64,000 nt of DNA from contig CANLLF010000002.1 of assembly GCA_947491935.1 (NCBI GenBank), forward strand, positions 558,001 to 622,000. The letters run 5' to 3'. Positions within the stretch are counted from its first letter, which is position 1. Each line of letters opens with the position of its first letter. This document shows positions 25,890 through 36,050 of the stretch, piece by piece. Below the pieces are notes generated by a model. That model made no database searches. It saw only the letters and a list, made by a program, of their open reading frames with translations, and was not told the DNA's origin. The stretch comes from an uncultured Roseicyclus sp. GTDB taxonomy: Bacteria > Pseudomonadota > Alphaproteobacteria > Rhodobacterales > Rhodobacteraceae. The position numbers were made by a program, and so were the translations under genes.

Positions 25890-25936
25890 TGGAGGCGAGT
25901 ACCGGAATCGAACCGGTGTACACGGATTTGCAATCC
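25890..25936. repeat. Left attachment site (47-bp tRNA-Cys fragment)
   Basis: This is a perfect 47-bp copy of the 3' part of tRNA-Cys, starting TGGAGGCGAGTACCGG and running through the anticodon to CAATCC. The sequence diverges at once on both sides, so the rest of the tRNA is absent. It marks the left end of the integrated element. Confidence 0.93.
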
Positions 25937-26087
25937 TTCGGACGCCTCTGAAAACGTTGCACAAGATTGTAAACACCCACCCTTTGAGGGCGTAGAAAAA
26001 TCAAACGGTTACACGCCCCCTGTAAACCGAAAATGCCGGTCTAACCTCGGTCGTTCGATAAAGCTCCAGCATAAGCGCATATCGCGC
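25937..26087. other. Left end of the element, noncoding
   Basis: About 150 bases between the left attachment site and the first element gene. An open frame continues through it from the chromosome side, but its residues look like translated tRNA and have no family features. Confidence 0.45.
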
Positions 26088-26429
26088 GTGATTGGCTATT
26101 GCCTGACGGTCGGAGATTTCGAGGCCTGGACTCGTTTCAGCATCGTTGCCATCGCGCAATTGAACCGATCTGAGCGTGCTGCGCTGGCTTATGCGGCACT
26201 GGGGGCCTTACCACCGGAAACCGCGGTTGAAGCCGCTGCAACAGCATTGGGTGCTCGCGGCGAGCCATTGCCCCCGTTCCTTGGCGGCATGACAGACGCC
26301 CGGGGGTGGGCCGCCCGCGCGACGAAAGCGGAGCTGCAAGCCTACGCTCTTGCCGCCTTCGACGCCATGGAGCCGAAGGACCAGGCCGCTTTCTATCACC
26401 ATATCAGCGAAATCGAGGTAGCGGCATGA
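26088..26429 (+). CDS. Small hypothetical protein, first gene of the packaging operon
   Basis: The credible part encodes about 90 to 113 residues. It is rich in Ala and Leu, with LNRSERAALAYAALGALPPETA, then DARGWAARATKAELQAYALAAFDAM and KDQAAFYHHISEIEVAA. No ATG is available upstream; GTG at 26088 or TTG at 26160 are possible starts, and I am unsure between them. The stop overlaps the connector start as ATGA, which supports it as a real, coupled gene. The function is unknown; mostly helical and soluble by appearance. Confidence 0.55.
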   Translation: MIGYCLTVGDFEAWTRFSIVAIAQLNRSERAALAYAALGALPPETAVEAAATALGARGEPLPPFLGGMTDARGWAARATKAELQAYALAAFDAMEPKDQAAFYHHISEIEVAA

Positions 26430-26974
26430 GCAAGGTTGTCGTGCAACGGGATTTGAACGCGGCAGATCCTTTCGTCTTGGGCGAGGTGAAGGCGCACCTT
26501 CGTGTGACCTTTGACGACGACGACGACGACATTCAGGCGAAGGCTCGCGCCGCCGCCGCTGAATTCGAGCAAGTCGCGCAAATGGCCCTGCTGAACCAAA
26601 CCATCAGGGTGAACATACTGGGCGGCCAGATCGAAAGCGTTCTGCGCTTGCCAATCGGGCCTGTTGACCAATCCGCGACAGTATCGGTGACCGCAGATGG
26701 TGTTGTCTGGACAGATTACGATCTGATCGCCGGACACAGGCCAGTGCTTTTGTTCTCAGATGATCTGACCGGGGCCTGGGTGGAGCGATTGGTGGTGGAA
26801 TACACCGCAGGTTTTGGCGCGGCGGCGAGCGATGTCCCAGCCGATATTGCCGAAGCTGTCATGGATCAGACGGCCATACACTTCGACGGACGATCGCCAA
26901 TGCACCGTAAGGACCTGTCGACGTCAGCGCACATGATGCGGATCGCGGCGCGGTATCGGGGGGTGCAGGTATGA
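26426..26974 (+). CDS. Phage head-tail connector protein (gp6-like)
   Basis: This 182-aa protein has the layout of HK97 gp6-like connectors: an N-terminal LGEVKAHLRVTFDDDDDDIQAKARAA helix region, a central beta part and a late VPADIAEAVMDQTAIHF helix. Connectors form the ring under the portal to which tails attach. Its presence with no tail genes in the element suggests heads are made ready to receive tails from elsewhere. It starts with an ATGA overlap and ends with another ATGA overlap into the next gene. Confidence 0.78.
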   Translation: MSKVVVQRDLNAADPFVLGEVKAHLRVTFDDDDDDIQAKARAAAAEFEQVAQMALLNQTIRVNILGGQIESVLRLPIGPVDQSATVSVTADGVVWTDYDLIAGHRPVLLFSDDLTGAWVERLVVEYTAGFGAAASDVPADIAEAVMDQTAIHFDGRSPMHRKDLSTSAHMMRIAARYRGVQV

Positions 26975-27201
26975 CTGACCTCGAGCTGGATGAGATCCTT
27001 ACCATCCATTGGCCCACTGTGGTGCGGCGCGCCATGGGTGGCGCGGCTGACGAATGGGTGCAGGCGTTCGTGCGGTCAATCGCCCGGCAAGGCAAGAGGC
27101 CATCGTGGCGTCCTTCCCTCAAGCAGCAACAGATCATGCGGCGGCTGGTGTCCGAGTTGGGCACGGCACCTGATGACGATTTCGACGTGATTGAGAGGTG
27201 A
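26971..27201 (+). CDS. Small hypothetical phage protein
   Basis: This 76-aa protein (MTDLELDEILTIHWPTVVRR...) is coupled to the connector gene by an ATGA overlap. It has a Trp-Arg-Pro-Ser-Leu-Lys-Gln segment followed by a basic helix (IMRRLVSELG) and an acidic tail. I do not recognise a family. Its place upstream of the large terminase would suit a small terminase or DNA-binding helper, but the sequence does not show this. Confidence 0.65.
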   Translation: MTDLELDEILTIHWPTVVRRAMGGAADEWVQAFVRSIARQGKRPSWRPSLKQQQIMRRLVSELGTAPDDDFDVIER

Positions 27202-27580
27202 GAACAAGAAAGCCCGCCGGTGCAACGGCGGGCTCATGCGACGTCTGGCTTTCAAGGGTTAGCCGGGGACATCGCATCACAGTGCTACCGGGTAACGGGC
27301 CACAGCACAAGGGCAGCTATCCCGCCATGAGCGGTCTCTCCACGCCCTAAGGCCCCACTGCCACCCTCGCGGCGGTGAACATTGGAGAGCGGACCGAGCC
27401 GAGGGAAAGGCAGGTCTGGCCTAAGCGGCGGCTCGGCTCCGGTGAGCAGGCAAGATCGCGGCGGTCAGGGCGGGAGACGGGTCTTAATGCCCGTCGCAGT
27501 AACCCGCTTCCTGACCGTCACAACGACCCTCACCAGTGAGCAGGTGGGCAGACAGAGCAACATCAGGACGACGCGAGAAC
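27202..27580. other. Noncoding, structured stretch 5' of the large terminase gene
   Basis: About 380 bases in an otherwise gene-dense operon with no convincing ORF. It holds a perfect 9-bp hairpin at 27211-27234 (AGCCCGCCG / CGGCGGGCT) whose minus-strand side is followed by T-rich sequence. It also has an imperfect inverted repeat, ACCGAGCCGAG (27393-27403) with CTCGGCTCCGGT (27432-27443). Position next to terminase and HNH genes makes it a candidate cos or pac packaging site, or a structured RNA. Confidence 0.5.
27211..27234 (-). terminator. Hairpin with T-rich tail on the minus strand
   Basis: Perfect 9-bp arms AGCCCGCCG and CGGCGGGCT with a 6-base loop. On the plus strand it is preceded by AAGAA and not followed by T; on the minus strand the hairpin is followed by TTCTTGTTC. 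It may stop antisense transcription or simply be RNA structure after the small gene. Confidence 0.45.
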
Positions 27581-29296
27581 ATGACCGAGGCAGCGAAGAC
27601 AGGACAGCGGAAGTGGCGCAAGGCTGACGGCTCTAAGCTCGATCCCGAGCCCGCGCCTGTACCGTTGTCAAAGCGCTACGCCGAAGACCTCTTTGGAAAT
27701 GGTCCCAATGCCGCAACTTGGCAAAACGGCCGGGACCGTCCCCCTAAGTTATCAATTTTCGCGCACCTGCCGGAACTGGAAAACGGGCCACCGGCAGAAA
27801 GAGCTATGCAATTCATGCATGGCCTCAAGATCCCGGAAGGGCCCAATTCGGGAAAACCGGTAACGCTCGCGCCCTTCCAACGCCAATTCATCGAAGGCGC
27901 GATGGCGGCGGACACCGCCAACGCGATTTTGAGCATCGGTCGCGGCAACGGGAAATCGGCGATCACGGCAGGCTTGGCGCTTGGCGGGTTGATAGGGGTT
28001 TGGGACCGTCAGCCTCGGCGCGAGATCATCGCCGCTGCCCGGACACGCGATCAAGGGCGCATCATTTGGGATTTTGTCGCCGGCTTCATTTCGACCCTCC
28101 CGCCCGAAATTCAACGCGACTTCATTTTTCGCCGGGCCCCTCGCCTTGAGATCGAGTATCAGGGCGATGGCGGCGGGCATGTCCTGCGTGTGATCGCTGC
28201 GGATGGTAAGTCAGCGCTCGGCGGCGCGCCGACAATGGCCATCCTCGATGAACGCGGACACTGGGCACTGGATCGCGGCGACGAGCTGGAACACGCACTG
28301 TTGTCCGGTCTTGGCAAACGGGACGGCCGGGCATTCTTGATCAGCACCAGCGCGCCAGACGACGCGCACCCATTTTCTCGCTGGATCGATGACCCGACCG
28401 CAGGCACATATGTTCAAGAGCATCGTCCAGCGCCTGGGCTTCCCGCAGATGATCCCGAAAGCCTCTTGATCGCCAACCCTGGTGCGCCTCATGGCATCGG
28501 CGGATCGCTGGAATGGCTGGAAGCGCAGGCCAAACGTGCCATTTCGCGCGGCGGATCCAGCCTCACCAGTTTCCGGCTCTACAACCGCAATGAACGCGTG
28601 TCCGGCGAGTCCCGCGATCTGCTGATCACACTCGATGAATGGCTTGGCTGCGAAACCGATGCCTTGCCGCCGCGTGAAGGTGGCGTCGTGATCGGAATCG
28701 ACCTCGGCGGCTCAGCCTCCATGACAGCGGCGGCATTCTACTGGCCTGAAACTGGCCGACTTGAATGCCTCGGAACCTTTCCCTCCATGCCCAATCTCTT
28801 GGACCGTGGCCAGGCGGATGGCGTGGCCGGGCGCTACGTGGAAATGCACGATCGCGGCGAGCTATCTGTTCTCGGCGACAAGACCGTGCCTGTCGCGCCA
28901 TGGTTGGTTGAGGTCATGCGCCATGTCGAGGATCAGCTCGTCATTGCAATCACCATGGACCGCTACAAGCAGGCCGAGTTGGGCGAAGCGCTTGGACGCG
29001 CGGGCATTCGTGCGCCCCTGGTCTGGCGCGGTCAGGGTTTTCGGGACGGTGGCGAAGACGCAGAGCGGTTCCGCCGGGCCGCCTTTGACGGGCTTGTGAA
29101 AGCCAAGCCGTCGCTGCTTCTACGTTCAGCCTTTGCCGACACCGTGTGCCTGCGCGACCCCGCCAACAACATTAAGATCGCCAAAGCCCGTTCAACCGGC
29201 CGGATCGATGCGGCCGCTGCGTCTGTTTTGGCCGTTGCTCAGGGCGCGCGGATCGCGGCGCAGCCCAAGTCGAAAGCGAGACTAATATGGGCCTGA
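27581..29296 (+). CDS. Phage terminase large subunit
   Basis: This 571-aa packaging motor has an N-terminal ATPase with Walker A GRGNGKS (120-126) and Walker B AILDERG (Asp223, Glu224). A C-terminal RNase H-like nuclease domain starts at IGIDLGGSASM (catalytic Asp374). The domain set fits the Terminase_1 type used by HK97-like phages. It would cut and pump the element DNA into procapsids. The ATG at 27581 follows GCGAGAAC and lies after a long noncoding stretch. Its end overlaps the HNH gene by 10 bases. Confidence 0.9.
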   Translation: MTEAAKTGQRKWRKADGSKLDPEPAPVPLSKRYAEDLFGNGPNAATWQNGRDRPPKLSIFAHLPELENGPPAERAMQFMHGLKIPEGPNSGKPVTLAPFQRQFIEGAMAADTANAILSIGRGNGKSAITAGLALGGLIGVWDRQPRREIIAAARTRDQGRIIWDFVAGFISTLPPEIQRDFIFRRAPRLEIEYQGDGGGHVLRVIAADGKSALGGAPTMAILDERGHWALDRGDELEHALLSGLGKRDGRAFLISTSAPDDAHPFSRWIDDPTAGTYVQEHRPAPGLPADDPESLLIANPGAPHGIGGSLEWLEAQAKRAISRGGSSLTSFRLYNRNERVSGESRDLLITLDEWLGCETDALPPREGGVVIGIDLGGSASMTAAAFYWPETGRLECLGTFPSMPNLLDRGQADGVAGRYVEMHDRGELSVLGDKTVPVAPWLVEVMRHVEDQLVIAITMDRYKQAELGEALGRAGIRAPLVWRGQGFRDGGEDAERFRRAAFDGLVKAKPSLLLRSAFADTVCLRDPANNIKIAKARSTGRIDAAAASVLAVAQGARIAAQPKSKARLIWA

Positions 29297-29625
29297 GGCG
29301 CGATCATCACCGCTATTCCAAGCGCGTCACACGCACCAAGCGTTGGCAGGTGCTTCGAGCCGAGATCCTCGAACGTGACCGTTATCGGTGTTGCTCCTGT
29401 GGCTGCGGCGGACGTCTTGAAGTCGATCACATCAAGCCTGTCAGGACGCACCCGGAATTATCCTACGACCCCGGCAACCTGCAGGCGCTTTGTCCGTCCT
29501 GCCATACCCGAAAAACCCGGATCGAGTGCGGGCATCCCCCGCCCCGAAAGGACCGCCAGGACTGGCGGCAAGCAGTCGAGTCGCTTGAACGGCCCGGCAC
29601 AAACTCTGTTGAGCAGAAAGGATAA
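29287..29625 (+). CDS. HNH endonuclease
   Basis: This 112-aa protein has the zinc-ribbon cysteines CCSCGCGG, the HNH core LEVDHIKPV, then NLQALCPSCHTRKT. Basic N-terminus. In HK97-like phages, an HNH protein beside the terminase stimulates cos cleavage during packaging (established for that group). It overlaps the end of the terminase gene by 10 bases and directly precedes the capsid gene, which supports the same role here. Confidence 0.9.
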   Translation: MGLRRDHHRYSKRVTRTKRWQVLRAEILERDRYRCCSCGCGGRLEVDHIKPVRTHPELSYDPGNLQALCPSCHTRKTRIECGHPPPRKDRQDWRQAVESLERPGTNSVEQKG

Positions 29626-29628
29626 ACC

Positions 29629-30900
29629 ATGCTCGAATCTGTGAAGATCGCCCGGCGGCAAAGCGAAATCCGCCAAACCCTCGCTGAGCTGGCGGGTAAG
29701 GAAACCCCATCTGAGGATGAAATCCGCCAGATGGATGAGTTGGATCGGGAATACCGCTCCAACGAGACCCGGTATCGCGCAGCCCTTATCGCCGAGGATA
29801 CCGAACGCCGGGACGCCGGAGACGAGCTTGAAACCCGCTCTGCCCAGGAATGGGCCGACCTTATGGCTGGTTTCGAAATGCGCCAGGTCGCGCTGGCCCT
29901 CGATGAAGGACGCCAACTCGACGGGCAGACGGCAGAGATCGTGTCCGAGCTGCGCAGTGCGGGCGGCTTCCGGGGCATTCCGGTGCCGTGGCAGGCTTTG
30001 GAAGCCCGGGCCGGTGAGACCATCGCCAGCGGCACCCCGAACCCAGTCCAGACCCGCCCTATCATTGACCGGTTGTTCCCCGACAGCGTGGCGGCGCGCA
30101 TGGGGGCGCAGATGATCAGCATCGACGCGGGCGCGGTGGAATGGCCGGTGACCACCTCGGCCGTCACGGCGGGTTGGGCGGATGGCGAGACGGCGAATGT
30201 CGCCGGCCCGACCGTCTATGCCACGACCGACCGCGCCATGTCGCCTGACCACAATCTGGGCATTCAGATGCGGATCACGCGCAAGACGCTGAAACAGTCC
30301 GGTGCGGCTATCGAACAGGCCGTCCGGCGTGACATGAGCGGAGCCATGGGCGCGGCGATGGATCAGGCGACGTTCCTCGGCACCGGGGCCAACGGTCAGC
30401 CCCTTGGCGTCATCACAGGCGCAGGCACTTATGGCATCACGTCTACGGCGGTGGACGCGCTGGCAGAGTGGGCCGCGTTCCGGGCTGGCGTGACCCGCTT
30501 CATGACCGCCAACGCGGCCAATGCCCCCGGCCAGGTCCGGGCCCTGCTGCGGCCCGAGTTGTGGGATTACATGGAGGGCAAACAGTCCATCTTGCCGGAT
30601 CTGTCGGAGTGGGATCGTCTCTTGAAGAATATTCCGGCAGCCAACATTGCCATGACGAGCAATGCGCTCGAAGAGCCTTCCGGGTCGCCGTTGGCAACCT
30701 CGTCTCTGCTGACCACCTCGGCTGGAGGGGTTGCGCCCATTTTCATCGGGGCATGGGGCGCGGTCGACATGATCCGCGACCCCTACAGCGATGCTCAGTC
30801 CGGAGGGCTGCGGATCACCGCCCTCGCCACCATGGATGTGACCGTAGCGCGAGAGGCTCAGCTCGAACTGCTCACCGGCTTGGAACTGGAAGCCGCGTGA
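29629..30900 (+). CDS. Major capsid protein, HK97 fold
   Basis: This 423-aa protein starts with a charged, helical delta-like scaffold region (residues 1-100, ARRQSEIRQTLAELAGKE...). The HK97-type shell domain follows. Recognisable parts are TIASGTPNPVQTRPIIDRLFP, DQATFLGTGANGQPLGVIT and the C-terminal FIGAWGAVDMIRDPYSDA, TMDVTVAREAQL. The delta domain is normally removed by the protease encoded next and serves as built-in scaffold, so no separate scaffold gene is needed. AAAGGATAAACC precedes the ATG. The protease gene overlaps the stop by one base. Confidence 0.9.
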   Translation: MLESVKIARRQSEIRQTLAELAGKETPSEDEIRQMDELDREYRSNETRYRAALIAEDTERRDAGDELETRSAQEWADLMAGFEMRQVALALDEGRQLDGQTAEIVSELRSAGGFRGIPVPWQALEARAGETIASGTPNPVQTRPIIDRLFPDSVAARMGAQMISIDAGAVEWPVTTSAVTAGWADGETANVAGPTVYATTDRAMSPDHNLGIQMRITRKTLKQSGAAIEQAVRRDMSGAMGAAMDQATFLGTGANGQPLGVITGAGTYGITSTAVDALAEWAAFRAGVTRFMTANAANAPGQVRALLRPELWDYMEGKQSILPDLSEWDRLLKNIPAANIAMTSNALEEPSGSPLATSSLLTTSAGGVAPIFIGAWGAVDMIRDPYSDAQSGGLRITALATMDVTVAREAQLELLTGLELEAA

Positions 30901-31478
30901 TGCTGTGGGGCGCTCATGTCGGCAGCCTTGAGCTGCGCACCGAAGGTGGGGAAACCCGCCTTCGGGCAACCTTCCCGTATGGCCGGGAAACCGTTCTGGC
31001 CGAGGGCATGGGGGCGGGCCGTGAGCGTCGTGAGATGATCGCAGCCCGTGCCTTTGCGGATCGGATCGAGCGCGGCGAGGACGTGCACTTTCTGTCAGGC
31101 CATGACTTCAACAAGCCGCTGGCCTCACGTTCAGCCGGGACGCTGACCCTGACGGAATCGGATGATGCCTTGACCGTCGACGCCAAGATTAGCGCCGACA
31201 TGGGACAAGTCAGCTACGTCCGGGACTTCCTGTCCGCCCATGCGGCCGGGTTGGTCCGAGGCCTGTCTCCCGGCTTCCGCGTCCGACCGGGCGGCGAGAC
31301 GGTCGAGGAGCGCGGCAACGCGATCCTGCGGACCATCAAGGCGGCTGACCTGATCGAGATCAGCGCCGTCACGAAACCCGCCTATCCGCAAGCCCAGATC
31401 GAGGCCCGGAACTGGCAACCCATTGGCGAGGTGGCAACCTACTCAAGGCACCCCCCCGCCGCGATCCGCTGGAGGTGA
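30900..31478 (+). CDS. HK97-family prohead protease
   Basis: This 192-aa serine protease has the family motifs FLSGHDFNKPLASR (catalytic His68) and GLVRGLSPGFRV (catalytic Ser123), ending with EISAVTKPAYPQAQI. The U35/S78 proteases trim capsid delta domains during head maturation. The ATG shares its A with the capsid stop codon. Placement after the capsid gene, not before, reverses the usual order. Confidence 0.9.
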   Translation: MLWGAHVGSLELRTEGGETRLRATFPYGRETVLAEGMGAGRERREMIAARAFADRIERGEDVHFLSGHDFNKPLASRSAGTLTLTESDDALTVDAKISADMGQVSYVRDFLSAHAAGLVRGLSPGFRVRPGGETVEERGNAILRTIKAADLIEISAVTKPAYPQAQIEARNWQPIGEVATYSRHPPAAIRWR

Positions 31479-31480
31479 CA

Positions 31481-32545
31481 ATGCTCGGATGGCTCATGAA
31501 CAAGCTGCGCCCAATCGAGGCCAGGTCGAGCGGCGCAGGCTATACCGCCCAGGTCATGGCAGCACGGGACAGCTTCATTAGCGGGCGGCGCGGTGTGGCC
31601 GAACTGACCGCGACAGTGCAGAGCTGTGTGAGCCTGTGGGAAGGCGGATTTGCGATGGCGGACGTGACCGGCACCGAATTGCTGACCCGTCAGACAATGG
31701 CCATGATCGCCCGAGCGGTCGCATTGAACGGCGAGGCTGTCTACCTCATCACCGATCTCGGACTTGTCCCGGCGACGGATTGGGATGTCACAACCCGTGA
31801 CGGGCGGCCGCGCGCCTATCGCTTGTCCATCCCGGAGGCTGGCGGCGGGCGCACGGTCACGGCACTTGCCGCCGAGGTGCTGCATCTGCGGATCGGCTCG
31901 GATAACCTGACGCCGTGGATCGGGACAGCGCCGCTGCGACGGTCCAGCCTCACGGGGTCTATGCTCCATGCGGTGGAATCCGCGCTTGGCGAGACGTTTG
32001 AGAATGCCCCGCTTGGCTCGCAGATCGTGCCATTACCCGATACCGGTGCTGACGACATGGCCTCAATGCGCGGTGCGTTCAAAGGGCGACGCGGTTCAAC
32101 CCTGGTGATCGAGGGCGTGGCCCAGGCGACTGCGGCGGGCATGAACCCCACGATCGGCCAAAAGCCGGATCAGCTTTCGCCGGATTTGTCCAAGAGCATG
32201 ACGGCCGAGACGCTGGCAGCCGCCCGTGAGGGTATTCTGATGGCCTATGGCGTCCTGCCATCGCTCGCGAACCGCGCGGCCACCGGCCCGGTTGTCAGGG
32301 AGGCACAGCGCCAGCTCGCAATCTGGACGTTGCAGCCCATAGCGGCGCTGCTGGCAGACGAGGCGACCGCCAAGCTCGGCGGGCTGGTGGAGATCGACAC
32401 CATCCGGCCGCTACAGGCCTTCGACGCGGGCGGGCGTGCCCGCGCCCTGTCGGCGATTATCAAAACCATGGCCGAGGCAAAGGAGGCGGGGATCCCGCCA
32501 GCCGACGTGTCCGGCGCGATGCGCATGGTGGACTGGAAGGAATAG
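31481..32545 (+). CDS. Phage portal protein
   Basis: This 354-aa protein matches HK97-type portals: an N-terminal domain with LTATVQSCVSLWEGGFAMAD, a central ALNGEAVYLITD and LHLRIGSDNLTPWIGTAPL stretch, and a late ILMAYGVLPSLANRAATGPVVREAQRQ crown-side region. It would form the dodecameric DNA entry ring. I chose the ATG at 31481 because GGAGG lies 5 bases upstream; a GTG two codons earlier is too close. It is the last gene of the plus-strand packaging operon. Confidence 0.88.
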   Translation: MLGWLMNKLRPIEARSSGAGYTAQVMAARDSFISGRRGVAELTATVQSCVSLWEGGFAMADVTGTELLTRQTMAMIARAVALNGEAVYLITDLGLVPATDWDVTTRDGRPRAYRLSIPEAGGGRTVTALAAEVLHLRIGSDNLTPWIGTAPLRRSSLTGSMLHAVESALGETFENAPLGSQIVPLPDTGADDMASMRGAFKGRRGSTLVIEGVAQATAAGMNPTIGQKPDQLSPDLSKSMTAETLAAAREGILMAYGVLPSLANRAATGPVVREAQRQLAIWTLQPIAALLADEATAKLGGLVEIDTIRPLQAFDAGGRARALSAIIKTMAEAKEAGIPPADVSGAMRMVDWKE

Positions 32546-32666
32546 GGCGGGACCAGCCCTGCGGTTCGCAATTTCGCCGCAAAATGCCCGGTTAGTCGGT
32601 GAGTGCGTAAACCCCGACAGCGCGCGGTCTGCTCCGATCCAAGGCGGGCGCGGCGCGCTATCTGCT

Positions 32667-33071
32667 TTACTCCCAAACGAACTCAGGAGCATTCCGTATC
32701 CGCGCCCTGCAAGCTGGATCGGGACAAACTTGGTAGAGCCCATCGCGATACGTCAGCGACTGTGTTCCATCTCGCCTCAAGCAGATCGGGCAATACGGAG
32801 GGCCTACCGGGTCTCCGTTTTCACCTACGTTGAAGAAAAAGGTTCTATATTCTACTAGACGAGCTTTATCGGCTAGATTGTCTTTAAGCTTCTCTGCTCT
32901 CATCGATTCCGACTTTAGTTGTTGATTCAGCTCCATGATCGTTTCTTGGGCTTCAACCAAAAGCGAACGAAGCGAGAGGATTTCCTCGCGAAAATCCATG
33001 TCGTTCAGGTCTTTGTTTAGCGACTGCAAGCGCCTGAGTCCGTTTGTGATATCCGCAATCGATAGTGCCAT
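32667..33071 (-). CDS. Coiled-coil protein with C-terminal zinc ribbon
   Basis: This 134-aa protein has a long helical, heptad-like N-terminal half (about residues 5-70, LVEAQETIMELNQQLKSESMRAEKLKDNLADKA). The C-terminal zinc-binding module has cysteines PPYCPICLRRDG and YQVCPDPACRAR. It starts one base after the XRE-type regulator gene ends and likely shares its promoter. I do not know the function. Base composition is lower in GC than the packaging genes. Confidence 0.75.
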   Translation of the reverse strand: MALSIADITNGLRRLQSLNKDLNDMDFREEILSLRSLLVEAQETIMELNQQLKSESMRAEKLKDNLADKARLVEYRTFFFNVGENGDPVGPPYCPICLRRDGTQSLTYRDGLYQVCPDPACRARIRNAPEFVWE

Positions 33072-33072
33072 T

Positions 33073-33324
33073 TTATTCCCTTCTCAGGCGAACACCCACT
33101 CCGCCCCCGTTCTTAGCAATAAATTCAATACCGGCGTCCTCGAGAGCAAAGATGAGCGAAACATAGGTAGAGGGATTAGGTGACGTCTGCCCTAATTCAT
33201 AGCTCGCGATTGTCCGTTTAGATACTTGAGCGACCGCCGCGAGGTATTCTTGAGACCAGCCCAGTAGCGCTCTGGCCGCACGTAATTGTGCTGGTGTCAT
33301 ACCGGAATGTGTTTCATCTTGCAT
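33073..33324 (-). CDS. XRE-family helix-turn-helix regulator (repressor-like)
   Basis: This 83-aa protein is almost entirely a Cro/C1-type HTH: MTPAQLRAARALLGWSQEYLAAVAQVSKRTIASYELG. A short C-terminal tail (EDAGIEFIAKNGGGVGVRLRRE) is typical of small alphaproteobacterial XRE proteins. The start at 33324 follows the family boundary; a much longer frame upstream runs through the divergent gene and is not credible. It is divergent from the gene at 33388 with a palindrome between them, so it is likely the element's lysogeny-type switch. Confidence 0.85.
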   Translation of the reverse strand: MQDETHSGMTPAQLRAARALLGWSQEYLAAVAQVSKRTIASYELGQTSPNPSTYVSLIFALEDAGIEFIAKNGGGVGVRLRRE

Positions 33325-33348
33325 CAATAATGCAGCCTTGCTATGAAA

Positions 33349-33367
33349 GTTGCACCATTGATGTAAC
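33349..33367. promoter_or_regulatory. Palindromic operator candidate between divergent genes
   Basis: The 19-bp site GTTGCA-N7-TGTAAC (one mismatch between arms) lies in the 63-bp gap between the XRE regulator and the divergent gene at 33388. Binding by the XRE protein is inference. Confidence 0.45.
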
Positions 33368-33387
33368 CTAATCTGGGAATTCTTACA

Positions 33388-33909
33388 ATGACCAATGAAC
33401 GCGCCTGCGCGAAGGCCCCAGTATTGCTCGAAGAGCAATTGGCTGAAGTAGAGCAAATGATGGCTAAAGCCGCCTCGTGCTACGAGCACATGAAACGATA
33501 CCTTGAGACACACGATCAGATCGATCCGCAACAGGTTCAAATGCACTTTGGAGCTGCCGCGCATCAGTGTTTTGTTGCACAGCAAGCCTTGGAAAGTATC
33601 AGGTGCCCTGCACAAGACAGCGCAGAGATGCTTTTTCCACGCTGGTCGAAGGTCCGTGAGACGATCAATTGGTTGGCTAAGCATCCAGATGCCGACGACG
33701 ATTTGTTGGAAGACCTTTTGCCTAGTCTCTACAGCCTGGAAAGCCGTATTATGGCTGCGCCAATTCGCAGCGCTCGTGACCTGGCGGCAAAACTGCTGTG
33801 CCATACAGCACTAGGCGATCATTGCATGGAAAAGTCATTTCTTGATGAAGCCACTGCAGTGCTCGGTTTGGCAGGCGACAGGACAACAACAATCCTAACA
33901 GCTGCCTGA
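33388..33909 (+). CDS. Hypothetical element protein
   Basis: This 173-aa, helix-rich protein begins MTNERACAKAPVLLEEQL and has MMAKAASCYEHMKRYLETHDQIDPQ, then LAKHPDADDDLLEDLLPSLYSLESRIMAAPI. No membrane segment, signal or known motif is apparent. It is divergent from the XRE regulator across a 63-bp gap, so it is probably the first gene controlled by it. It could be an antirepressor or helper-interaction factor; this is only a guess from position. Confidence 0.7.
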   Translation: MTNERACAKAPVLLEEQLAEVEQMMAKAASCYEHMKRYLETHDQIDPQQVQMHFGAAAHQCFVAQQALESIRCPAQDSAEMLFPRWSKVRETINWLAKHPDADDDLLEDLLPSLYSLESRIMAAPIRSARDLAAKLLCHTALGDHCMEKSFLDEATAVLGLAGDRTTTILTAA

Positions 33910-34002
33910 CCCGTCGCGATGGCAAACGGCAAGATCTAATGGACGATATGGTCAGGTAGACGGTGGGCACAGTTCGCGGCACGAAGCTGGATCAATCTAA
34001 AA

Positions 34003-34044
34003 CGTGAGAGATGACACGGTTATTGAACCGTGTCATCTCTCACG
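34003..34044. repeat. Perfect 19-bp inverted repeat with 4-base loop
   Basis: The arms 34003-34021 (CGTGAGAGATGACACGGTT) and 34026-34044 are exact reverse complements around ATTG. No T-tract follows. It lies 25 bases before the start of the MerR-like gene. It may be an operator, attenuator hairpin or recombination-related site. Confidence 0.88.
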
Positions 34045-34069
34045 AAACCACTTATCGAGGCAGGCTAAA

Positions 34070-34654
34070 ATGGTTGACCGGGTTCAGCACGTAGAGGCAT
34101 TTACACCTGCGGAGGCAGAAGCTCTCTCAGGGATCGGAACTGCTCTCCAAAGAGATCATCGCAGACGGTTTCCTAACTGGTTGCCTCAAAAGTCAGGGCA
34201 CGCAAGGTTTGATCTATTCCAATGCCTACAGATGCGGTTTGTCGCAGATGCGAGCGAGTTGGGAATAGGTCCTGCCCATGCGTACCAGACGGGCGAATGG
34301 GTTGCGCACCACGCTCTTGCATTCGCGCTGAACGAACCCGGCTGTGTTGCTGGTGACTTGTCTTATGAATGCACTCTTCCCGACGCGAACGAGGACGAAA
34401 TTCGAGAGTATACCGCCCGCCGTGTTTTTGCAGAGGCGTTTGGGCGACCCAAGATAATGCCAAACGAATTTGCATTTGTTTGGGGAGACGGCACCGACTG
34501 GTTCGGCCCGTCATTTTCCGATTGCCTTGAGGCATTACCCAGAGAAGACCCCCGCCGAGGGAAGCCAACAGTGGCAGTCCATTTGCCTTCCTTCGCACGC
34601 CAGATCGTCGTGAAATTACCGCGTCCAGCGGTTCGCATTCTCGTCGAGGCATGA
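34070..34654 (+). CDS. MerR-like winged-helix protein, putative element regulator
   Basis: This 194-aa protein has an N-terminal HTH-like start (AFTPAEAEALSGIGTALQRDHRRRF) typical of a MerR-like group common in alphaproteobacterial prophages. The rest (FDLFQCLQMRFVADASELGIGPAHAYQTGEW, later WGDGTDWFGPSFSDCLEAL) has no motif I know. The ATG at 34070 follows CGAGGCAGG. The long inverted repeat is immediately upstream. An ATGA overlap links it to the next small gene and so to the integrase, suggesting it controls or assists integration and excision. Confidence 0.7.
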   Translation: MVDRVQHVEAFTPAEAEALSGIGTALQRDHRRRFPNWLPQKSGHARFDLFQCLQMRFVADASELGIGPAHAYQTGEWVAHHALAFALNEPGCVAGDLSYECTLPDANEDEIREYTARRVFAEAFGRPKIMPNEFAFVWGDGTDWFGPSFSDCLEALPREDPRRGKPTVAVHLPSFARQIVVKLPRPAVRILVEA

Positions 34655-34863
34655 GTATGGAGCGTCGGCCCGCCGCAATTCGGAAATCAGATCTAACACC
34701 TGCTTTTGAGGCGGCGTTCTCGGCGGGTTGGGATGAAGTGTCGGTAGATACCCCTGTTCCGGGCGGGGAGCGTCTCAAGATCACCGCTCGGCGAAACCCC
34801 GAAACTGGAGAACCGGATATGTCTCCTCTCGAAAAATGGAAGGCGACCCGAAATGGGAAGTGA
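34651..34863 (+). CDS. Small hypothetical protein upstream of the integrase
   Basis: This 70-aa basic protein (MSMERRPAAIRKSDLTPAFEAAF...) begins with an ATGA overlap and ends inside the integrase gene (11-base overlap). The body contains WDEVSVDTPVPGGERLKITARR and a short basic tail. It might be a recombination directionality factor by position, but no HTH is visible. Confidence 0.65.
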   Translation: MSMERRPAAIRKSDLTPAFEAAFSAGWDEVSVDTPVPGGERLKITARRNPETGEPDMSPLEKWKATRNGK

Positions 34864-35902
34864 CCTTCCCAAAGGCGTGCACCGCGTCCGGCGGAAGCTG
34901 GCGAACGGCAAGAGTCGCTTTCACTTCTACGCCTGGCGTGGTGGTCCCAAATTCTGGGAAGATGACCACCGCAAACCGAGCGACCCCGCGTTCTATCAAG
35001 CATTTGCCGAAGCCACTGCGCGCCCGAAGCCGGCCGACTATACGACGCCCCAGATGGTGGATGACTTCCTGTCCAGTACCGCCATGCCCAAGGGCGAACG
35101 GTCGCGCGCCGACATTCGGAAATGGGGCTTGCGCTTTGCGGACCATTTCAAGGATGCGCCTGCCGTCATCTTTGAGGAACGCGGCGCACGGGGCGAGGTG
35201 AACGCATGGCGGGCGCTCTGGAAGCACTCGCCCAAGCAGCACGATATGGCGGGCACCCACGCGGTTCGCATTCTCAATTGGGCGGTAGATGAGGGCAAGC
35301 TGTCCGAACATCACTGCCACAAGCTCCACCGGCTCTATGAGGTGGACCGCTCGGAAATCGTCTGGACCCCGGCCGACCGGGAAGTCTTCAACGCGGCCGC
35401 GCCGGAATGGGTGCGCCGCATTCTCTGCGCAGCCTGCGAAACAGGCTTGCGCCCGGCTGACCTGATCAAGCTGACCCAGGCCCATGTCGAACAGACGCCG
35501 CGCGGCCGCCGCCTTCGCGTTAGGACGAACAAGCGCAAGCGGCTGGCCCATATCCCGATCACGCCCGCGTTGGCCGAGGTGATCGACACGACCCCACCGG
35601 GACGGTTGCTGATCCTCACGAATGCCAACGGTAACGCCCTGACCCCGCACCGCGCGTCCGAGGGTGTCCGCCAGTGGCGCGACAAGGCCAAGCTGTCCGA
35701 TGAGCTGCGCCTGTATGATGCGCGCGGGACGGCTGCAACGCGCCTGCTAAATGCGGGCCTGTCGCTTGCTGAAATCGCCAATCACATGGGCTGGTCTGTC
35801 CGCTATGCTGCGAACGTGATCGAGCATTACGCCCGCGTGTCGCCCGACGAAACCGACGCGGTTCTGGTCAAGCTGGCCCAAGCGAAAGGGGGTGTAGCAT
35901 GA
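34853..35902 (+). CDS. Tyrosine recombinase (integrase)
   Basis: This 349-aa site-specific recombinase has an N-terminal arm region, a core-binding domain and a C-terminal catalytic domain. Visible residues are the first Arg in ACETGLRPADL (Arg200), a Lys in NKRKRLAHIP (227-229), Tyr-Asp-Ala-Arg with Arg291, Trp314 in HMGWS, and the nucleophile Tyr326 in IEHYARV. The first His of the usual H-x-x-R box is Tyr288 here. It ends 75 bases from the tRNA-Cys repeat, consistent with catalysing integration there. Confidence 0.92.
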   Translation: MGSDLPKGVHRVRRKLANGKSRFHFYAWRGGPKFWEDDHRKPSDPAFYQAFAEATARPKPADYTTPQMVDDFLSSTAMPKGERSRADIRKWGLRFADHFKDAPAVIFEERGARGEVNAWRALWKHSPKQHDMAGTHAVRILNWAVDEGKLSEHHCHKLHRLYEVDRSEIVWTPADREVFNAAAPEWVRRILCAACETGLRPADLIKLTQAHVEQTPRGRRLRVRTNKRKRLAHIPITPALAEVIDTTPPGRLLILTNANGNALTPHRASEGVRQWRDKAKLSDELRLYDARGTAATRLLNAGLSLAEIANHMGWSVRYAANVIEHYARVSPDETDAVLVKLAQAKGGVA

Positions 35903-35976
35903 ACAAAACTGTAAACGCCCCTGTAAACGGAGCAGGCCGCGCAAGCAGCAGTGAGGCGCAAGTGTCTGATATTAAA

Positions 35977-36023
35977 TGGAGGCGAGTACCGGAATCGAAC
36001 CGGTGTACACGGATTTGCAATCC
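35977..36023. repeat. Right attachment site within tRNA-Cys
   Basis: This 47-bp segment is identical to 25890-25936 and makes up the 3' part of the intact tRNA-Cys gene. Identity stops after CAATCC, where this copy continues into the tRNA 5' half. Confidence 0.93.
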
Positions 36024-36050
36024 GCTGCGTAACCACTCCGCCAACTCGCC
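35977..36050 (-). tRNA. tRNA-Cys (GCA)
   Basis: The 74-nt cloverleaf runs 5' GGCGAGT ... ACTCGCC T CCA 3' on the minus strand, with CCA encoded. The anticodon loop is TTGCAAA (anticodon GCA) and the T arm has GGTTCGATTCC. The element's right attachment repeat occupies its 3' 47 bases (35977-36023), and integration left this copy intact. Confidence 0.97.

Follow-up and report, generated by a model that had tools for sequence, protein, structure and literature searches.

Capsid-forming phage-inducible chromosomal islands (cf-PICIs) carry an integrase and encode their own capsid, prohead protease, portal, connector, terminase large subunit (TerL) and HNH endonuclease, with no tail genes. Their mean size is given as 14 kb (PMC10803314). 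Here we describe an element of about 10 kb with the same gene content, found in a 64,000-nucleotide stretch of an uncultured Roseicyclus sp. (contig CANLLF010000002.1; hereafter the window, meaning the whole stretch) and bounded by repeats of a tRNA-Cys gene at positions 25890-36023. It differs from the cf-PICIs in that no small terminase subunit (TerS) and no replication gene were found, and in that it has a structured RNA. Because the replication gene is absent, no TerS was recognised and the likeness is judged by gene content alone, we do not file the element as a cf-PICI; rather, it appears to work like a capsid-forming satellite. We put the probability that it is an intact, integrative, capsid-forming satellite, as its sequence suggests, at roughly 0.8.

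The Streptomyces satellites MulchRoom and MiniFlayer are similar by description, in that they encode encapsidation and are without replication genes; all satellites known before them are stated to encode a replication gene (PMC10690885). MulchRoom carries an integrase and apparently relies on the tail of its helper, and the capsids of MulchRoom and MiniFlayer measure 43.7 and 42.5 nm, respectively (PMC10690885). Unlike the element, they have direct terminal repeats, a small terminase subunit and other hosts, and the passages that describe them mention no such RNA (PMC10690885).

RcGTA, the gene transfer agent (GTA) of Rhodobacter, resembles the element in one protein, the adaptor Rcc01688, which is homologous to the element's connector. 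GTAs package host DNA, lack att sites and, unlike the element, encode a tail; the element has att repeats and no recognised tail gene. The original prediction, made from the sequence of the window, knew of no satellite of this kind in Rhodobacterales, and no report of self-encapsidating satellites in this group turned up in the open-access text that could be searched. The element would extend such satellites to this bacterial group.

Gene content of the element

The predicted boundaries were confirmed. A perfect 47-bp direct repeat (47/47 positions identical) at 25890-25936 and 35977-36023 encloses 10,087 bp, of which 90% is covered by 14 called genes. The right copy of this att repeat makes up the 3' portion of a complete tRNA-Cys(gca) gene on the minus strand (35977-36050), and the left copy, a partial duplicate of the tRNA 3' end, marks the left end of the element.

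Pfam and PHROGs searches bore out the integrase, connector, packaging and head genes that had been read from the sequence, all of which lie on the plus strand. A head-tail adaptor or connector of 182 aa (26426-26974; phrog_442, 8e-19) is followed by TerL with its ATPase and nuclease domains (27581-29296; phrog_9, 4e-58; PF20441 and PF03354), an HNH endonuclease (29287-29625; PF01844, 1e-10), a major capsid protein of the HK97 fold (29629-30900; PF05065, 7e-15; phrog_617, 2e-20), an S78 prohead protease (30900-31478; PF04586, 5e-22) and a portal protein (31475-32545; PF04860, 3e-12). The tyrosine integrase stands near the right end (34853-35902; PF00589, 4e-12; phrog_1, 1e-19). The start of TerL was picked from relatives; an in-frame GTG lies upstream at 27536. 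As the original prediction had claimed, nothing among the 14 proteins fell into a Pfam or PHROGs family for tail, lysis or replication at E≤0.001, and no TerS gene was recognised among them. The HNH protein matches phrog_4581, a family labelled terminase small subunit (1.5e-14), via its HNH domain; this is one of 39 HNH-protein family matches, with many HNH families among the 25 listed.

Beyond the genes named earlier, we find two small proteins (sm1 and sm2), a conserved structured RNA in the non-coding stretch 27202-27580, a helix-turn-helix (HTH) gene and four unassigned open reading frames (ORFs). The conserved helical protein sm1 (113 aa; 26088-26429, plus strand, with a GTG start picked from relatives) precedes the connector and has a mean column identity of 71% in a 27-row alignment. 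It had no Pfam or PHROG match in a scan started at 26100 and no PDB sequence match, and its AlphaFold model is of low confidence (pLDDT 69), too weak for a fold search. The gene for sm2, a predicted three-helix protein of 76 aa that co-occurs with the RNA (26971-27201, plus strand), follows that of the connector; its AlphaFold model (pLDDT 88) had no PDB fold match at E≤0.001. A TerS role for either protein was considered and gained no support, as neither has a family or a PDB sequence match and sm2 also lacks a fold match.

Conserved order, size and integration sites

A search with TerL yielded 33 loci in genome contigs and the best 80 of 81 loci in viral contigs, making 114 loci with the window; the two collections overlap, since some genome elements recur as viral contigs. 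Judged by genus, 29 of the 33 genome-contig loci belong to Rhodobacterales and four to Rhizobiales. Fifty-one of the 114 loci, 37 of them distinct by TerL, have a complete core of eight genes (sm1, connector, sm2, TerL, HNH, capsid, protease, portal), and in all 51 its order and strand are identical. The remaining loci are cut at contig ends or have a different gene set. Three of them, L024, L032 and L097, have a gene for a primase or AAA ATPase and one for head closure (phrog_161) ahead of TerL, with the portal gene close to the right end. No viral contig was circular or terminally repeated by simple end matching.

Direct repeats derived from tRNA genes bound the elements at Cys, Glu, Arg, Thr, Phe, Leu, Lys, Met and Asn genes. 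The 29 elements with accepted ends measure 9,566-10,973 bp, with a mean of 10,096 bp (SD 213) for the 22 that carry the RNA. Some end repeats are only 15-21 bp long and were counted for their position at the 3' end of a tRNA gene, and the ends of L074 were counted because its 51-bp repeat is identical to the one in tRNA-Phe elements; the candidates L022 (10,699 bp), L075 (10,590 bp) and L162 (10,109 bp), and repeat matches away from tRNA genes, were left out of the 29. That the size stays the same while integrases and sites differ suggests a limit set by packaging, and 9.6-11.0 kb leaves no room for a tail module alongside the head genes. Relatives thus do not always carry tail and lysis genes, and the small form is conserved. 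The original prediction had turned on these two points, and its reading of the element as a capsid-forming satellite gains support from both. In the part of PMC7762592 that sets out a scaling model, a head of T=3 corresponds to 11.78 kb and one of T~2.49 to 8.94 kb, each with wide intervals, and the element's length falls between the two. The same text describes it as puzzling that tailed phages with heads of T=1 and T=3 are lacking (PMC7762592).

A structured RNA between sm2 and TerL

Between the end of sm2 (27201) and the start of TerL (27581) lies a putative RNA of about 330 nt, which we place on the plus strand at 27212-27544, from its first hairpin to the 3' copy of a repeat; these ends are predicted, and the model core spans 27276-27467. 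The corresponding stretch is 250-432 nt long as projected in 64 sequences, the window included, a set from which two loci with 867 nt between sm2 and TerL were omitted. It is conserved, begins with a GC hairpin and has insertions and deletions that are not multiples of three. Two sequence types are represented by 28 sequences each, with eight of the 64 untyped; the RNA of the window is type A.

RNAalifold energies were far below those of 30 column shuffles for both type A (z -14.4, 19 sequences) and type B (z -7.3, 18 sequences); the window sequence alone gave a z of -2.4. With the structure fixed, 13 of 39 pairs in type B change on both sides (slid controls, 0-3) and 97.7% of cells pair. The corresponding values for type A are five of 51 pairs (slid controls, 0-2) and 98.4%, and the number of further pair types in type A was not above shuffles. 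Among pairs predicted on both strands, G-U outnumbers A-C by 53 to 18 (p = 4e-5, uncorrected for relatedness), which favours an RNA read from the plus strand. A structure at the DNA level only is disfavoured by this excess, despite the nearly equal folding of the minus strand (-241.9 vs -252.4; -213.8 vs -221.6).

The window RNA had no Rfam match at E≤5, and we regard it, from its sequence and predicted fold, as a candidate for a new RNA family. When 12 RNA loci were compared with Rfam, the best match was RF02932, with 27-33 bits in four of the 12 against a gathering cut-off of 49.4. This sub-threshold overlap with RF02932 (Betaproteobacteria-1 RNA), at L135, L137, L141 and L143, hints at a wider RNA family; a literature search by the name of RF02932 found no paper.

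Most of the RNAs carry a motif of 7-9 nt twice, once where the core ends and once 88-97 nt further downstream. In the window, the element-specific repeat GTGAGCAGG occupies 27442-27450 and, 94 nt downstream, 27536-27544, both on the plus strand. The letters of the repeat vary among elements (GTGAGCAG, TTGAGCAG, ATTGGCAG, CCAACAGG, GCCGGAAC and others) yet match within an element: a word of at least 7 letters is common to both places in 37 of 41 distinct loci, against 332 of 956 cross-locus pairs with different letters, a control in which the letter classes still partly have GAGCAG in common. Agreement is poor in L030 and partial in L013, L031 and L062. A guide-like complement of the repeats was rejected (11 matches vs 14.4 in the control), and third copies were not above chance (19 vs 23.9 and 7 vs 11.2 in the control). 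Genome G016 has two copies of the RNA (L171 and L172) with 92.5% identity, which breaks off at the second repeat; different genes, of 944 aa and 508 aa, then follow.

In genomes of the same family, RNA model R1 matched 25 of 295 and model R2 matched 7 of 295. Among 30 loci that were fetched (28 from RNA matches and two from a capsid search), 11 have a TerL of the window family (>300 bits) and 19 have an sm2 match; where its distance was measured, in nine of 20 loci read by motif, sm2 lies 58-91 nt before the RNA. The four loci tested for another terminase (L174, L175, L181 and L187) encode TerL of the lambda type (PF05876, PF20454), preceded in each by the sm2-RNA module, and the idea that the RNA is bound to one terminase type was rejected because of these lambda-type elements. 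L174 and L175 both encode a PF05136 portal and, after the RNA, a Nu1-like TerS that is below the Pfam cut-off in both and matches phrog_57 at 3e-26 in L175; L174 has a fused protease-capsid protein. In L175 (genome G275), genes of the window's HK97-type family for capsid, protease and portal lie about 6 kb before the start of the lambda-type RNA element, and two kinds of satellite may stand here in tandem.

RNA and replication genes

RNA and replication genes were never found together in the 114 loci: 65 have the RNA only, 24 a replication gene only, 25 neither and none both (Fisher p = 2e-11 for the tally, ignoring relatedness). Four of the twelve replication queries (from L072, L084, L021 and L086) had no family scan, and the L086 query, an HTH gene by reading, counts itself; with the eight family-supported queries the corresponding numbers are 65, 21, 28 and 0. 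The distribution of sm2 is similar to that of the RNA, with sm2 present in 63 of 65 RNA-bearing loci vs three of 49 RNA-free loci. An O-like initiator (3-4e-10) occupies the slot before TerL in L009 and L025, and L185, which lacks the RNA, shows a primase-like match. Replication genes are present in RNA-free relatives and were not found in the window. In 19 of the 25 loci with neither, TerL lies within 2.3 kb of a contig end (exceptions: L020, L081, L095, L100, L106 and L027). A PHROGs scan of the stretch from portal to att covered 132 of 333 ORFs, from the 16 RNA-bearing elements among 17 (the RNA-free L009 was omitted), and returned integrases, regulators, excisionases and one ParA, with no replication family among the 25 of 33 families listed.

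From this mutual exclusion we tentatively suggest, at somewhat less than even odds, that the sm2-RNA module has a role in replication and stands in for a replication initiator in the window's branch. It would supply or attract replication, either with the RNA as a primer at the origin or as an origin read by the helper. ColE1-type plasmid origins replicate by a structured RNA without a Rep protein, and a likeness of the element's RNA to them may be proposed by reasoning alone. The RNA raises the testable question of whether an RNA can take the place of a Rep protein in the replication of a satellite.

Several points speak against such a role. The replication queries were chosen from RNA-free loci once the pattern had been seen, so the test of exclusion is not blind. 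Counted by distinct TerL ends, the eight-query classes fall to 44, 18 and 23; the loci are related, and some records stand in both collections. L172, which lies outside the 114 loci, has the RNA together with a primase-like stretch about 2.2 kb downstream. Finally, no sm2 or head gene of the window family was recognised with the RNA in L163, L164, L166, L167 and L169-L173, among which L169 has weak integrase and HTH matches.

The RNA could instead be a long leader that controls the late operon by antitermination, attenuation or sensing of helper infection. Its position before packaging genes in two unrelated cassettes and its initial hairpin would fit a leader, but a leader alone explains neither the exclusion with replication genes nor the two matching repeats, and we think this possible but doubtful. 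We find it unlikely that the RNA is a packaging RNA like the pRNA of phi29, or a cis-acting packaging site, that replaces TerS. The RNA is directly 5' of TerL in an element with no TerS found, and many RNA-bearing relatives have in common a basic motif at the N-terminus of TerL, ahead of the ATPase domain (KKxRxWRKADGS-like, read by eye; 27581-27640 in the window), which is lacking in some, such as L010 and L052. Against this, the RNA of L174 and L175 is followed by a Nu1-like TerS and a different TerL, and nine RNA copies occur without a TerL of the window family.

Selection, distribution and the nature of the element

Selection, which the original prediction had proposed, is evident in the head, packaging and integrase genes, whose dN/dS is 0.03-0.16 against three relatives, by simple counts with synonymous sites near saturation. 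Against the same-genus L184 (at tRNA-Cys, 9.7 kb) the values are 0.069 for capsid, 0.047 for portal, 0.093 for TerL and 0.056 for integrase, and those against L031 and L030 agree. In the three-relative comparisons, the connector (44-52% identity), sm1 (47-57%) and sm2 (46-70%) are far more divergent than capsid and portal (87-95%). Over 80 random pairs, sm1 (0.58), connector (0.65) and sm2 (0.67) are again lowest, with the others, including portal, TerL and capsid, at 0.75-0.85. Faster divergence of the connector than of portal, TerL and capsid is expected if the connector adapts to helpers.

The connector matches Rcc01688 at 8e-5 by sequence and at 2.3e-15 by family profile, and Rcc01688 is the sole convincing solved-structure match of the profile (next match, 0.74). 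In the window's own genome (G000, 14 contigs), the single further connector homologue (E 2.9e-10) lies inside a cluster of the RcGTA type, which also encodes tape, hub and megatron proteins. This cluster is at about 156000-171000 of G000:C1 (L224). Shared ancestry with siphophage adaptors would explain the likeness equally well, and GTA tails are only a candidate donor.

The anatomy of the element, its conserved order, uniform size, tRNA sites and purifying selection, and the fact that no tail gene was found, suggest how it might work as a satellite. The tyrosine integrase would place it in tRNA-Cys, it would build its own small head, and its own TerL and HNH would package its genome of about 10 kb. 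A second phage or particle present in the cell would contribute tail and lysis, the tail by way of the fast-evolving connector; we infer the use of a helper's tail. Some of our observations sit less easily with a satellite. The element has no recognised TerS, though cf-PICIs are described with one. The scan of 132 ORFs gave one tail-fibre match (phrog_12296, 5e-23) and one TerS-family match, neither of which was located when 20 of the ORFs were re-scanned singly. The connector profile, run on solved structures and the own genome, identified no tail donor or helper. Excision, a small capsid and a helper tail would be expected of such a satellite.

We consider it very improbable that the element is a head cluster domesticated by the host, GTA-like or for defence, rather than a mobile satellite. 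The RcGTA-type cluster indicates that host-kept head clusters do occur in this genome, but the element has an integrase and att repeats, its relatives lie at many tRNA genes, and its distribution is patchy, with strong capsid matches in three of 61 genomes, including its own, and weak ones in four more. Prophage remnants are common and some relatives are broken (TerL is split in L027), but a decaying prophage stripped of its genes for tail, lysis and replication, the alternative that the original prediction had disfavoured, is rejected as more improbable still by the low dN/dS, the dense coding and the conservation of the reduced form, whose order, size and att structure are constant across many genera.

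For the suggested comparison of empty and filled tRNA-Cys sites, the locus was located in 13 of 13 same-genus genomes, with a further repeat copy 10-35 kb away in five, including the window's own, and a single copy in eight. In G010 the right flank aligns at 95.7% over 984 bp, but on the left only 56 bp align, so this is a single-copy site and not a clean flank pair. Other islands of about 10.6-34.5 kb occur at tRNA-Cys in L197 (G009), L195 (G004), L196 (G007) and L198-L199 (G002). The islands L195-L199 (G004, G007, the second island of G009, and G002) matched neither of the two RNA models nor any head-gene profile.

Among 50,697 phage records, 23 matched the capsid and 124 matched TerL; no identity reached 60%, and the matches listed stayed under 30%. 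There was no match in these records for the connector at E≤0.01, for sm2 at E≤0.1 or for the type-B RNA of L015. Identity of TerL to plasmid records went up to 67%, in one record from Pseudorhodobacter; the L015 RNA had no plasmid match. L168, a 4.6-kb RNA-bearing contig, was considered as a plasmid and rejected, as terminal overlap is absent.

One could envision a modular group of Rhodobacterales satellites in which unrelated head cassettes of the HK97 and lambda types are exchanged on one sm2-RNA chassis, the RNA replaces the initiator, the repeats mark an RNA-directed origin, and HK97-type heads of about 10 kb and T~3 dock onto host GTA tails. This scheme is speculative and, taken as a whole, improbable; if true, docking onto GTA tails would make a GTA the helper of a satellite.

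Other features of the element

Between the portal and integrase genes lie an HTH repressor-like gene on the minus strand (33073-33324; PF01381, 4e-11) and, beside it on the same strand, an ORF for a coiled-coil-like protein with cysteine pairs, read by eye (32667-33071; phrog_1244, 5e-5, a family of unknown function). Two ORFs on the plus strand, at 33388-33909 and 34070-34654, have no significant family in Pfam or PHROGs. The second is preceded by a 19-bp perfect inverted repeat with a 4-nt spacer (34003-34044), possibly an operator or terminator. A small ORF just upstream of the integrase (34651-34863, plus strand), itself without a significant family, has relatives in the tRNA-Cys elements L012, L030 and L031.

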